Assembly: GCA_030688025.1 (NCBI GenBank)
Contig: JAUYJL010000008.1
Location: forward strand, 37,136-101,135
DNA from: Candidatus Peregrinibacteria bacterium
Lineage (GTDB): Bacteria; Patescibacteriota; Gracilibacteria; UBA1369; LOWO2-01-FULL-3
Reading direction: 5' to 3'
DNA length: 64,000 nucleotides
Made by a program: the position numbers and the translations under genes. Positions 53,424-58,584 of this stretch are shown piece after piece. Under the pieces are notes generated by a model. It had not been told where the DNA came from. It did not search any database and saw nothing but the letters and a program-made list of their open reading frames with translations. Positions within the stretch are counted from its first letter, which is position 1; each line of letters begins with the position of its first letter.

Positions 53424-54233
53424 TTATAAACTTATCTTCTCCGGCATCTTGATTTTCATACCGAGGTATTTTTCTGTGAACTCTTTGAAGCGCGCAGGAT
53501 CATCTGTTGTGAGGAATTCTTTTTTGCCTTTTTTTGATAACTTTCCCTCTATTTCTGGATGTCTTCCGAGATAAGTTTTTAGGCTTTGTGCTGTCACTTC
53601 TCCTGATTCGATTATACGGATTTTTTTGCCTAAAATTCTTTTAAAATTTTTGAGCATTAGTGGGTAGTGAGTGCATCCAAGAATGAGCGTATCCACGTTA
53701 TTGTTTTTTATGTCTCTGAGATATTTTTTTAGAATTGAGTGAGATTCTGGTTTGTTTTGCCATCCTTCTTCGATTAGTGGAACAAGTAGTGGGCAGGCTT
53801 TTCCGTAAACTTTTATATCTTTATCTAGCTTGTTGATCTCTGTTTCGTATACCTTTGAATTTATCGTAGCCTTTGTCCCAACTACTCCTATCCTTTTGTT
53901 TTTTGTCACCTCTATCGCCTTCTCTGCGGCCGGAATTAAAACACCTAAGATTTTTCGATCTTGCTCATCTTTTCCTTTCAAATATTTTTCCTGAACATGT
54001 CGAAGAGATGTGCTAGATGCCGTGTTGCAGGCAAAAATTATTAGTTTTACTCCTTTGCTAAAAAGGTATTCCACCGCTTGCTCTGAGAACATTTTGATAT
54101 TTTCCGTGCTGTGATTTCCATATGGAGCTCTACCACTGTCCCCTAGGTACATGTAGTCGTACTCAGGCAAAAGCTTGAGTATTGGTTTTAGGACTGTGAG
54201 TCCGCCGTATCCTGAATCAAATAGTGCAATCAT
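53424..54233 (-). CDS. murI: Glutamate racemase
   Basis: ALFDSGYGGLTVLK, YLGDSGRAPYG, FACNTAS, LGCTHYPLM. Confidence 0.94.
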   Translation of the reverse strand: MIALFDSGYGGLTVLKPILKLLPEYDYMYLGDSGRAPYGNHSTENIKMFSEQAVEYLFSKGVKLIIFACNTASSTSLRHVQEKYLKGKDEQDRKILGVLIPAAEKAIEVTKNKRIGVVGTKATINSKVYETEINKLDKDIKVYGKACPLLVPLIEEGWQNKPESHSILKKYLRDIKNNNVDTLILGCTHYPLMLKNFKRILGKKIRIIESGEVTAQSLKTYLGRHPEIEGKLSKKGKKEFLTTDDPARFKEFTEKYLGMKIKMPEKISL

Positions 54234-54280
54234 TGCGCAAAATATACCAAAAATTGCTTTGCAGAGCCAGTTATAATATC

Positions 54281-55021
54281 ATGGTGCTAATGTTTAATGA
54301 TAAAAATAAAAAATTTGCCGTTTCTTTTGTCTTGATAGGCCTTGTTTTAGGCCTTCTTCTTACTTGGCAATTTCAAACCGAAGTCCCAAGGGGCAGCACT
54401 TTCCCCGTTGATGAGATTGATGCAAGGAAGGATTTATTGAAAAGTTTTCTTGATGAACAGACCTACTCTCAGAGCAAAATCGTGTTTTTACGTAATGAAA
54501 TAGAAAAATCGCAGAGCCTAATAGAATCAAAAACTAAGGATGTGAATATAGAGACTCTTGATAAGATTAAGAGGAAAATTGGCCTTAGCGTTACGGAAGG
54601 AGAAGGCGTGGAAATTGTAATAGATGACGGGCCAACGGCTTCCAGAGAAGGTGCGGAAGTTTCCGATAGCTTGCTTGTGCAAGCTTCTGATCTTCGTGAT
54701 CTTGTGAATATGCTGAATTCCGCAAAGTCTGACGCTATTTCTGTGAACAATCAAAGAATTATAGCGGAATCCTCTATCTCTTCGATTGGGACAAGCATTC
54801 TTATCAACAACACTTATATTTCTCCACCTTTTACAATAAATGCTGTGGGAGACAGTGGCAGTATTATGCAAAGAATTATGAATGAAGCCTTGTTTCCTTC
54901 GATATACAAAAGATCGAAGAAAGGCGAGATTCGATTTAAGGCTGAGCCAAAGGCTTTTTTGTCTATTCCTATCTACAATGGAGATCTTAAAACAAACAAC
55001 CTAAATATCGTAAATAAATAA
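54281..55021 (+). CDS. DUF881 family protein
   Basis: N-terminal TM, coiled coil, EGVEIVIDDGP...LVNMLNSAKSDAISVNNQRI. Confidence 0.82.
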   Translation: MVLMFNDKNKKFAVSFVLIGLVLGLLLTWQFQTEVPRGSTFPVDEIDARKDLLKSFLDEQTYSQSKIVFLRNEIEKSQSLIESKTKDVNIETLDKIKRKIGLSVTEGEGVEIVIDDGPTASREGAEVSDSLLVQASDLRDLVNMLNSAKSDAISVNNQRIIAESSISSIGTSILINNTYISPPFTINAVGDSGSIMQRIMNEALFPSIYKRSKKGEIRFKAEPKAFLSIPIYNGDLKTNNLNIVNK

Positions 55022-55641
55022 TGAATAAAAGAAAAATTTACATATTGATAATCGCTATATTGCTTGGCAGTTTTATAGTAATCGAGGGGAGATCTTTTGA
55101 TATTGTAAATAACATTATTTTGAGGGATTCGAAAAGCGATGTGTTTAAGGAAATCAAGGTTTTGAGGGAGGGAAATCAAAATCTTAGGGATGAGATTAAA
55201 GATTTGGAAGCTACTCTTTCGAGCCTTTCCGACAAAGATTTGGCCGTAAAAACCATACAAAATGAGATTGAAAAATATAACAAACTTTCCGGAGAATATG
55301 CCGTTTACGGGCCTGGCGTTTCGATTGCGATAAGCGGAAAAATCACTGCACCATGGATGGTAGATTTAATAAATGAACTTTTTCATGCCGGAGCTCAAGC
55401 TGTAAGCATAAATGGTATACGTATAACGAATGAATCTTCCGGATTTGATACTCTTCCGAAGGGACAGATTTATATAGATGGCACGATTTTGAGTCCTCCT
55501 TACGTTTTTAATGCGATAGGGGAAGCTATCACCCTGAATAATGCTCTAGGCGCCATAGGCGGCATTTTTGATAGGATAAGAGCAACATTTGGGGGCGTTT
55601 CTATAGTGCTAGAACAAAAGGATGTGCTGGAAATAAACTAA
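55021..55641 (+). CDS. DUF881 family protein (tandem paralogue)
   Basis: GPGVSIAISGKITAPWMVDLINELFHAGAQAVSINGIRI. Confidence 0.85.
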   Translation: MNKRKIYILIIAILLGSFIVIEGRSFDIVNNIILRDSKSDVFKEIKVLREGNQNLRDEIKDLEATLSSLSDKDLAVKTIQNEIEKYNKLSGEYAVYGPGVSIAISGKITAPWMVDLINELFHAGAQAVSINGIRITNESSGFDTLPKGQIYIDGTILSPPYVFNAIGEAITLNNALGAIGGIFDRIRATFGGVSIVLEQKDVLEIN

Positions 55642-55656
55642 TGAACCTCTGAAAGT

Positions 55657-56331
55657 TTATTTGTAGTACAAGAGAAGCCAAAGTGGCTGAAGTGCCAGAG
55701 TGAAAAGGAGGATTGTTAAAAGAATTCTTTTGTTGAATTTTTCTATTTTTACGTTCAAATGGACATCTTTCATCTCTTTTTCTTTTGTCTCTATTTTTTC
55801 CTTCAATTCCTGTTTCTCTTTGTCGCTTTGATACTTATCTCTGTGAAATTCGAGCATTGGAATGCTACTTCTGAGCCGTGCTTCGAGCTGGCCCACTCTG
55901 TAATTTGCTATTTCGAGGCGTTCTTGTTTCACATTTAACTCTTCTTTGACATCAAAATATAATTTTTTATATATCTCATGATCTTCCTTTGATGGATCTG
56001 CTTTAGTCTTAGCCTCAAAAACCTCCACTCTGTCTACATTGTCTACTGCTTCGTCTATAGACTTGTCTATAGACATCTCAGGTATAGACATGTCGACATT
56101 GTCTACTGTGACTGTAGACACCTGTCCACCCTTAAGCTTGCGTATTTCGCCTTTATTAAGCCAAATACGCCCGTCTTCTATACGACTAGACAGCTTTTTA
56201 GATTTTATATACCTGTCTAGTGTTCTTATTGACACTTTTAACAATCGGCTTGCGGCTTTTCGGTCTAGATTATATGTGGACAAGGTGCTGTCTAGTTGCA
56301 TATCTATTATGTATTTAATGTCTATAGACAA
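55657..56331 (-). CDS. HTH (excisionase/MerR-like) protein with coiled coil and C-terminal TM (start may be internal MQLDST)
   Basis: DRKAASRLLKVSIRTLDRYIKSKKLSSRIEDGRIWLNKGEI; C-terminal ILLTILLFTLALQPLWLLLYYK. Confidence 0.72.
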   Translation of the reverse strand: MSIDIKYIIDMQLDSTLSTYNLDRKAASRLLKVSIRTLDRYIKSKKLSSRIEDGRIWLNKGEIRKLKGGQVSTVTVDNVDMSIPEMSIDKSIDEAVDNVDRVEVFEAKTKADPSKEDHEIYKKLYFDVKEELNVKQERLEIANYRVGQLEARLRSSIPMLEFHRDKYQSDKEKQELKEKIETKEKEMKDVHLNVKIEKFNKRILLTILLFTLALQPLWLLLYYK

Positions 56332-56395
56332 GACATAGACATCTTTGCCATGATTTTATTCTCTTTGTCTATACGTGTCTAGTTGATTGTCCACT
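56031..56395. promoter_or_regulatory. Dense TGTCTA/TGTNNACA palindrome array over linker-coding region, 5' end and promoter of the HTH gene
   Basis: TGTCTATAGACA at 56064-56075 and 56319-56330; TGTCGACA 56091-56098; TGTAGACA 56113-56120; TGTGGACA 56275-56282; plus about a dozen TGTCTA/TAGACA half-sites. Confidence 0.7.
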
Positions 56396-56415: not shown

Positions 56416-58584
56416 TTGTTCTCATTCCTATTCCTACATTTCATGCGTTTTATTAATACCTTATTATTAGTAATCGTGTTCATTGGCACTTCAATGTCTT
56501 TAAATTTTAGCGTATTAGCTGAAAATTTTGATGATGCCTATGTCCATGAACTCTTTGCGGGGGTAGACGTCTCTAAGGTCGAATTTGAGGGAATTTATCC
56601 TGGAAGTCAGCTTGGCGCCGACACTAAGAGTGGAGATTTTAATCGCGATGGAATCCAAGATATTGCAATTGCCGCGCCTTTTGCCTCTGTGGACGAAAGA
56701 AAATGGAATGGGCAGGTTTTAGTGTATTTTGGAAAAAATGATTTTTTTCTAGATAAAGCCAATCTCTCTAATTTCACTGCGGATATTATTATTACTGGAC
56801 GAATTTCCGGAGATCAGTTGGGAACTTCTATCACCACCGGTGATTTTAATGGAGATGGAGCTGATGACTTGGCGATAGGAGCTTATAATGCCTCGGCTTT
56901 CTATGCTTATGAGAAAGACAAGCATCCGGGACAGGTCTATTTAGTTTATGGAAAAAGTTATTGGAGCGAGAAGAATATAGATCTTTTATATAGATCCGCC
57001 GATTTTACGATGTATGGAGTTGAGGATGGAGATGCTTTCGGACTATCTATGGAAACTGCCGATATAAATTCCGATAAGATTGATGATCTGCTTGTCTCTG
57101 CGCCTTTCTCGTCTTCTACTTCAGGAGAGGGGAGCGGAAATGTATATGTTTTTTATGGAAGATTTTCCGGTATTTATTTTTATCCTTCTTTTTCTTCAAA
57201 TGCGGATATTGTTTTTCACGGACAAGTTAAAAATGAAAGATTTGGAGCGTCTATGGCGGCAGGGGATATAAACGGTGACAAAAGAGTTGATTTGCTCATA
57301 GGCGCCTACTATTCGGGCATTCAAAATATGGATAAAACCGGACGCGTATATATTTATGAAAATAAAAAATTCGAAAGAATTGTCAATAAGCCTACAAATG
57401 TGGTTAACGGGATTTTTGATAATGAATGGTTTGGGTTTTCTATTGCGACCGGAGATATAAATAATGATGGCAATAAAGATTTTGCGATTTCGGCTTTCCC
57501 TTACGAAGGACCAAAAAATAAAAGTCGCGTGGCCTTGTATTACGGCAGAAGTGATTTTTCCAAAAAAAATGTAAAGGTAATTTCGCCTGATTTTGTTATT
57601 GAAAATCCTTTAAATGAGATTTTACTTGGAGCGAAAGTTTTGATGGAAGATATGGATGGAGATGGCTTGAGTGAGGTCATTGTTGGCGCTCCCGGAATAG
57701 GAAATTCTGTCAGCCTTAAAGAGGGGAATGTTTATGTTGTAAATATTGATGAGAAGAAATCCCGCTACAGTATGAGAAAAAATGAATTTTCTTCAGTAAT
57801 ACACGGAGAAAATTCTGATGATTGGTTTGGGTTTAGTTTGGATACTGTGGATTTTAACGGGGACTCTAAAAAAGATTTACTTATCGGCTCAAGATATTCT
57901 GATTTTCCGAATCGTATAAATGCTGGAAAGGCTTTTGTGTTTTTTGGCGAGGATGGCGCTTTTGGCATAAAGAAGCCTGTTTCTGATCTTGATAATGAAA
58001 GAACTGTCTCGAGAGGGGAACTTGTGAAGATGGTCACAGACAGGTTTGATTTGAAAAATAAAAAAACCGATAGCATACAAAAATGCATGGATTATAAAGA
58101 GTTCTGTCTTTTTAATTTCATGGCGATGTCTTCTTTTGACGGCATAACTCTCGATCCCGAGCTTATTCTTTATCCTGATGTTGAAAAAGATAATCCTTAT
58201 TATGAGGAAATAAATATTGCCACGATGCTTGGGGTTATCAACGGCTATCTAAATGACACAAATAGCCCTTTTAGGCCCGAGGAAACTATTTCCAGAGTAG
58301 ATGCACTGAAAGTTGTTTTAACTGCGACAGACCTTTTAGATCCGAAATATCGATTCGAATTGTCCAAGGAGCTTGGAGGAGATGATAAGCTGGCTAGTCA
58401 ACCTTCATATTTTGTTGATATTAACCCGAAAATAAGTTATATGTGGTGGTATCCGCGTTATGTAAATTTTGCGGTAGACAATGGTATTGTCGACAAGTAT
58501 GAATACTTTAGACCTGACGAGCCTATAACGATGAAAGAGCTCGATAATATGATTGTTCGAACATTTTCTTTCATAAACAAGTAA
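56416..58584 (+). CDS. FG-GAP/integrin-like repeat surface protein with C-terminal SLH domains
   Basis: repeated GDFNGDGADDLAIGA / GDINGDKRVDLLIGA; SLH RGELVKMVTDRF, RVDALKVVL. Confidence 0.88.
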   Translation: MFSFLFLHFMRFINTLLLVIVFIGTSMSLNFSVLAENFDDAYVHELFAGVDVSKVEFEGIYPGSQLGADTKSGDFNRDGIQDIAIAAPFASVDERKWNGQVLVYFGKNDFFLDKANLSNFTADIIITGRISGDQLGTSITTGDFNGDGADDLAIGAYNASAFYAYEKDKHPGQVYLVYGKSYWSEKNIDLLYRSADFTMYGVEDGDAFGLSMETADINSDKIDDLLVSAPFSSSTSGEGSGNVYVFYGRFSGIYFYPSFSSNADIVFHGQVKNERFGASMAAGDINGDKRVDLLIGAYYSGIQNMDKTGRVYIYENKKFERIVNKPTNVVNGIFDNEWFGFSIATGDINNDGNKDFAISAFPYEGPKNKSRVALYYGRSDFSKKNVKVISPDFVIENPLNEILLGAKVLMEDMDGDGLSEVIVGAPGIGNSVSLKEGNVYVVNIDEKKSRYSMRKNEFSSVIHGENSDDWFGFSLDTVDFNGDSKKDLLIGSRYSDFPNRINAGKAFVFFGEDGAFGIKKPVSDLDNERTVSRGELVKMVTDRFDLKNKKTDSIQKCMDYKEFCLFNFMAMSSFDGITLDPELILYPDVEKDNPYYEEINIATMLGVINGYLNDTNSPFRPEETISRVDALKVVLTATDLLDPKYRFELSKELGGDDKLASQPSYFVDINPKISYMWWYPRYVNFAVDNGIVDKYEYFRPDEPITMKELDNMIVRTFSFINK

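Follow-up and report, generated by a model that had tools for sequence, protein, structure and literature searches.

A tail-anchored MerR-like protein of the Peregrinibacteria with a site array in its own gene: a candidate membrane tether for the chromosome

A gene for a 214-aa protein, located in the 64-kb stretch of DNA analysed here (the window), carries inside its coding sequence and directly upstream of it a dense array of TGTCTA-type sites, which the encoded protein, judged from sequence, very probably binds. We put at about even the chance that this protein is a chromosomal, membrane-tethered anchor that resembles RacA, RocS and pSK1 Par, uses the array within its gene as a centromere-like site and probably also regulates its own expression. 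What is new here is the transmembrane (TM) helix, the dense array inside and beside the protein's own gene, and the occurrence of both in a clade mostly without ParAB. The centromere-like tether is now better supported than an autoregulatory operator embedded in coding DNA.

The host genome is 1.18 Mb in size and 98% complete, and its closest named relatives are metagenome-assembled genomes of Ca. Peregrinibacteria and Ca. Peribacteria. The features of the locus are collected in Table 1. An alternative, longer reading of the array gene begins at TTG 56331 and encodes 224 aa; the ATG at 56301 is the more likely start, since orthologue alignments begin nearby, and with this start the upstream palindrome falls in the leader/promoter and not in codons. 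The promoter of the divergent FG-GAP/SLH neighbour lies within the array or beside it. The synteny block guaA-murI-DUF881-DUF881-array gene-FG-GAP is also present in other genera, which argues that the array gene is a vertically inherited core gene, and its protein family is almost confined to its own class. A mobile or phage element is ruled out, as no plasmid or phage record matches and the synteny is conserved.

Table 1. Features of the array gene and its surroundings (positions in the window)
Feature	Position	Strand	Basis
Gene of the HTH-linker-coiled-coil-TM protein, 214 aa	55657..56301 (stop included)	-	ORF; orthologues; structure prediction
C-terminal TM helix ILLTILLFTLALQPLWLLL, residues 193-211	55669..55725	-	19-residue hydropathy 2.33
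Coiled-coil region with conserved core RLEIANYRVGQLEAQ	55732..55995	-	predicted helices 103-145 and 149-213; near-invariant columns
Predicted disordered linker, residues 61-102	55996..56121	-	pLDDT < 50; synonymous resampling
Winged MerR-like HTH, residues 7-60	56122..56283	-	AlphaFold model; Foldseek; alignment
Array, coding part: TGTC[TCG]A half-sites over linker and HTH codons	56031..56301		site counts; shuffles; synonymous resampling
Array, non-coding part between the divergent genes	56302..56393		site counts; 11-bp phasing of the equivalent orthologue region
Perfect palindrome TGTCTATAGACA, linker codons	56064..56075		pattern match
Perfect palindrome TGTCTATAGACA, leader/promoter	56319..56330		pattern match
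Divergent neighbour, FG-GAP repeat / S-layer-homology (SLH) protein	56443..58584	+	Pfam; conserved synteny
Pair of DUF881 genes in convergent orientation to the array gene	54224..55641	+	Pfam; conserved synteny

The TGTCTA/TAGACA hexamer occurs 35 times in the window, and 15 of these occurrences start within 56031-56376, i.e., in about 350 bp; TGTC[TCG]A half-sites number 20 between 56031 and 56393. The earlier note on this DNA had placed about 20 sites at 56031-56395, including two perfect palindromes, over the divergent promoter and the linker-coding segment, and had quoted the linker peptide; the site counts agree, both palindromes were recovered, sites are carried by the coding as well as the non-coding part, and the peptide is present in the translation. 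The non-coding part overlaps promoter-like sites on both strands. Under dinucleotide shuffling, the array region is expected to hold 0.6 TGTCTA sites, against the 15 observed (z 18.5; 0/300 shuffles), and a chance or low-complexity repeat is ruled out by these shuffles together with conservation and synonymous resampling.

Selection at the level of DNA was revealed by synonymous resampling, in which the peptide was fixed and codons were drawn from local usage: the 41 loci with a coding array contain 243 TGTCTA sites, compared with 34.9 expected, so that the array is kept while synonymous positions vary, which was the check proposed in the earlier note. Furthermore, xTAGACAG is the codon sequence at the invariant x-D-R residues of the HTH in 28 array loci vs 3 of the other loci. 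The low-confidence segment of residues 61-102 is the one encoded by the densest sites, and the linker is rich in VD, MS and ID because the DNA sites encode it. The array is not a by-product of a VD/MS-rich linker, since enrichment extends to the codons of the invariant HTH residues and to non-coding DNA, and the array is confined to upstream DNA in some lineages. Thus, as far as sequence comparison can tell, selection for DNA sites dictates the linker sequence and the HTH codons wherever the array is coding. In the non-coding DNA of the orthologue arrays, same-strand sites are spaced by 9-12, 22, 33, and 44 bp, with peaks at 11, 22, 33, and 44 bp, and palindromic pairs by 6, 17, 28, and 39 bp; this spacing, with a period of about 11 bp, places the sites on one helical face. 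Such phasing is the expectation for cooperative loading by MerR-like winged HTH (wHTH) proteins such as BldC (PMC5859096).

The predicted structure and the hydropathy profile accord with the N-terminal HTH, coiled coil and C-terminal TM helix that had previously been read from the translation. In the alignment, the HTH residues R14, A17, R26, T27, D29, and R30 are invariant, and invariant residues are clustered in the recognition helix. Foldseek matches, which cover the HTH only at E values of about 0.01-0.2, comprise BldC (6ama, the best), Xis (4j2n), RacA (5i44), and pSK1 Par (8csh). A profile search returned weak matches to Xis and RacA, with RacA as the best named cellular match (E 0.79), and the scores for Pfam MerR and HTH_17 membership stay below the curated cut-off (16-17 vs 27-28 bits). 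Only 3 residues follow the TM helix in the window protein, and a C-terminal hydrophobic helix is found in 71/71 orthologues, with a 19-residue hydropathy of at least 1.82 and at most 6 residues beyond it, which argues for an anchor and not a sensor. An extracytoplasmic sensor domain of the ToxR/CadC type after the helix is absent from these 71 orthologues, and a membrane-bound sensor-regulator is ruled out, as there is no domain beyond the helix.

Orthologues of the array gene are present in 90 of 99 relatives. The array was tested in 71 of them over positions -330 to +240 relative to the HTH anchor and was significant in most; the orthologues, whose lack of an array the earlier note had named as the observation that would speak against it, have thus mostly kept it. 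Families f1, f2, f5, f7, f10, and f14 have a strong array, families f4, f8, f15, and f22 have 2-5 sites only, and no array beyond chance was found within this region in L146 and L147 (both f8) and L156 (f3). In f10, f12, f13, and genome G069, hardly any coding site is present and the array is located upstream, which indicates that it is the DNA beside the gene that is kept and not the linker peptide. The array of G069 consists of 44-bp tandem units, extends over at least 0.8 kb, and is interrupted by a contig break: a 44-bp minisatellite of TGTCTA/TGTCGACA sites lies at the end of one contig and at the start of another (L044:4971-5465 and L045:37-362), directly upstream of the orthologous gene, and is probably one long array split by the assembly. 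A change of motif paralleling HTH change across the lineages was sought and not seen, the motif being constant as TGTC(T/C/G)A.

The genome-wide count of TGTCTATAGACA that had been proposed was carried out by pattern searches and showed the sites to be concentrated at the array gene. The whole host genome holds the two perfect copies at the array plus one more; the 99 relatives hold 57, most of them at the array gene, vs 3 of the reversed control, and 136 genomes outside the class hold 4. Among the 14 palindromes lying outside the array, 7 share a contig with the main array, all of them 2-66 kb away from it, compared with 1.06 expected from the lengths of the contigs (P 9.5e-6, or 1.0e-5 with homologous cases merged; post hoc statistics on 14 sites with the length of one contig assumed). 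The location of these outside palindromes changes from lineage to lineage: they are in nadK (G019, G009), in nrdR (G045, G083), in the own genus in an exonuclease gene just upstream of ftsA-ftsZ, and in G024 and G029 in a cohesin-domain gene that adjoins the gene of another small HTH protein; in G015 and G007 TGTCTA clusters occur at this place. The satellite-bearing genes and the array gene belong to one syntenic region, and such regional clustering, noted post hoc, is hard to explain by gene-specific regulation.

Several further clusters were observed. In the genus of the window (L037/L038/L046), 5-7 TGTCTA sites are clustered inside the 5'-3' exonuclease gene, which is followed by ftsA-ftsZ. 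A non-coding stretch of about 600 bp at L244:700-1400 (G091:C1, about 190.7-191.4 kb) contains 8 TGTCTA half-sites, 50 kb from an array gene that in G091 has a weak array only. A second excisionase-like HTH coiled-coil protein of 154-157 aa (L041:7026-7490; L043:4412-4885; L098, near G000:C6:22904) is encoded in this region in several genera, near satellite TGTCTA clusters; its neighbours are PPDK, a protein with a cohesin domain and one of lamin-tail/dockerin-like type.

The chief rival to a tether, which we regard as possible but unlikely, is that the array is a large autoregulatory operator and nothing else, exerting steep, cooperative self-repression on a membrane protein with another job. 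It would account for an array that always lies next to its own gene, over the promoter, and holds most of the perfect palindromes, and the handful of promoter sites in the distant lineages f4, f8, f15, and f22 would suffice for an ordinary operator. However, 15-24 half-sites that dictate linker and HTH codons exceed what an operator needs, as does the length of the G069 array; the satellite clusters sit in unrelated coding genes and yet in the same chromosomal region, and no sensory domain exists past the TM helix.

Membrane attachment combined with specific sites would equally suit nucleoid occlusion or division control of the Noc/SlmA kind, in which the membrane-attached array complex keeps the division machinery off the region, and the own-genus satellite cluster does lie in the gene directly upstream of ftsA-ftsZ. 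Occlusion, however, requires sites chromosome-wide, whereas these are found at one locus and its surroundings, and in other genera no ftsA cluster is present, the clusters lying instead in nadK, nrdR or the cohesin-domain gene; this reading is therefore improbable. Similarly doubtful, and to be given little weight, is the idea that another protein, e.g., the excisionase-like coiled-coil protein HTH157 of the same region, reads the array and that the 214-aa protein is merely its host. A second small wHTH coiled-coil protein is indeed encoded near the satellite clusters in G007, G015, and G024; however, HTH157 has a different HTH, the array follows the 214-aa gene when it is shifted from coding to upstream DNA, and invariance of the motif goes together with invariance of R26-T27-D29-R30 in the recognition helix.

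For the preferred centromere-like tether, the following mechanism is proposed. The MerR-like wHTH would recognise TGTCTA half-sites, whether these are single, repeated directly at a spacing of one helical turn, or joined into TGTCTATAGACA palindromes. Many copies of the protein would load adjacently on one face of the array, which spans the gene's promoter and the 5' part of its coding sequence. Multimerised by the coiled coil, the loaded copies and their DNA would be held on the inside of the membrane by the C-terminal TM helices. Together with the small satellite clusters up to about 70 kb away, the locus would form a region that acts like a centromere or anchors the nucleoid. With its promoter occupied, the gene would also be autoregulated, a part of the scheme that we consider probable. 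That the locus is tethered to the membrane and takes part in segregation or in positioning the nucleoid is suggested by architecture and analogy and may be right or wrong with similar likelihood.

The sites of RacA are not known to be packed within racA's own gene, unlike the array described here; the centromere of pSK1 Par lies upstream of the par gene, and a B. subtilis parS lies within spo0J. RacA of Bacillus subtilis, which acts on ram sites, resembles the array protein in its MerR-like wHTH and coiled coil, its centromere-like repeated sites, and the link between DNA and membrane (PMC6593407) that is proposed for the array protein, but contacts the membrane via DivIVA and lacks a TM helix; a symmetric dimer binds its GC-rich site (PMC5859096), and its sites are spread near the origin (PMC6593407). 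RocS of Streptococcus pneumoniae has an N-terminal MerR-type wHTH, a coiled coil, and a C-terminal membrane anchor, and is required for chromosome segregation (PMC11500499). In contrast to the array protein, RocS employs an amphipathic helix, is said to bind DNA without sequence specificity (PMC7022226), and acts with ParB, and the available portions of PMC11500499 and PMC7022226 describe no site array for it. pSK1 Par, a single-protein partition system of a staphylococcal plasmid (PMC11500499), likewise joins a wHTH and a coiled coil in one protein that has cognate centromere DNA and is matched by Foldseek (8csh); it differs in being plasmid-borne and in having an amphipathic stretch at the C-terminus, where the array protein has a TM helix.

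The MerR-like wHTH protein BldC of Streptomyces loads head-to-tail on direct repeats that vary in number and are spaced by one helical turn (PMC5859096). Here, 11-bp phased direct repeats and a fold match of the HTH are observed, and loading of the BldC kind may occur; BldC itself is a 68-aa soluble regulator with another motif and without coiled coil or membrane anchor. TubY, from type III plasmid partition, has a MerR-like HTH, a multimerising coiled coil, and a membrane-binding C-terminus, and binds its own region (PMC7762940), but is accessory to TubZR and has an amphipathic tail, not a TM helix. ParB-parS and Noc share the centromere-like arrays or sites, and Noc brings DNA to the membrane (a reference cited in PMC7022226); the array protein, however, has another fold and no ParB_N/CTPase domain. 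With a predicted MerR-like wHTH, a predicted central coiled coil and a C-terminal membrane helix, it shows these three features of single-protein anchors of the RacA, RocS, and pSK1 Par type, for which no curated family exists, and the precedents of RacA, RocS, pSK1 Par, and TubY (PMC6593407; PMC11500499; PMC7762940) show that a wHTH, a coiled coil and membrane attachment together serve DNA positioning.

The position of the array relative to the replication origin was considered through GC skew. In G091, whose skew is ordinary, the negative-to-positive switch lies near 148 kb and the array gene at 140 kb, 7 kb apart, and in G031 a noisy but suggestive switch between 125 and 140 kb accompanies an array gene at 153 kb. 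No skew switch was found near the array in f1, f2, and f4 genomes, and an array at a skew switch, be it oriC or terminus, is rejected for G001, G015, G019, and G045; skew of one sign over hundreds of kilobases means that the origin cannot be placed by skew in f1, f2, and f4. One-sign skew was observed in G007 (L057-L076, L043, L047), G015 (L186-L202), G001, G045, G058, and G071; all 22 sampled stretches of the single 998-kb contig of G007 have the same sign, and there is no switch at dnaA in G007 or G015. Skew curves of Peregrinibacteria have been described as typical, with two extremes (PMC7143001), and one-sign skew has been reported for Microgenomates. Unidirectional replication, or an origin and a terminus that are adjacent, are possible explanations of the one-sign skew. 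That the array serves as an iteron-like origin of replication, or as a site of replication control, with a regulator bound to the membrane is highly improbable: the iteron-like layout adjoins the gene of the probable binding protein, the G091 switch is close, and many relatives have an unplaced origin, but a domain search detected no initiator or AAA domain in the 214-aa protein, dnaA is encoded elsewhere, and the four genomes named above show no switch at the array.

ParB_N was detected in 4 of 41 relatives and was absent from 37, and strong ParA matches were obtained in 2 of 25, the ParA test being the weaker one as it used one Pfam model on a partial sample. Both searches were positive in most named control genomes, and their negatives are bounded by the completeness of the assemblies. 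The 214-aa protein itself has no ParB_N domain in Pfam and, with ParA and ParB rare in the relatives, is not assigned to the ParABS systems. Since the class is mostly without ParA/ParB and has a membrane-anchored protein with a site array at its own gene, a chromosome tether made of a single protein is conceivable. More tentatively, a ParABS-independent centromere might be envisaged, in which the main centromere of one tail-anchored protein lies within and directly ahead of the gene encoding that protein and shapes part of its sequence, and satellites drift among the genes of one near-origin region. Our literature search found no paper on chromosome segregation in Patescibacteria without ParAB.

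The array gene thus offers a testable segregation candidate that is kept across the Peregrinibacteria class, for which the protein, the probable site (TGTCTATAGACA or 11-bp TGTCTA repeats) and the location are given. It is also a clear case of an array of DNA sites that overrides codon choice and shapes a disordered linker, such that a segment of the protein can be read as embedded DNA-binding sites.
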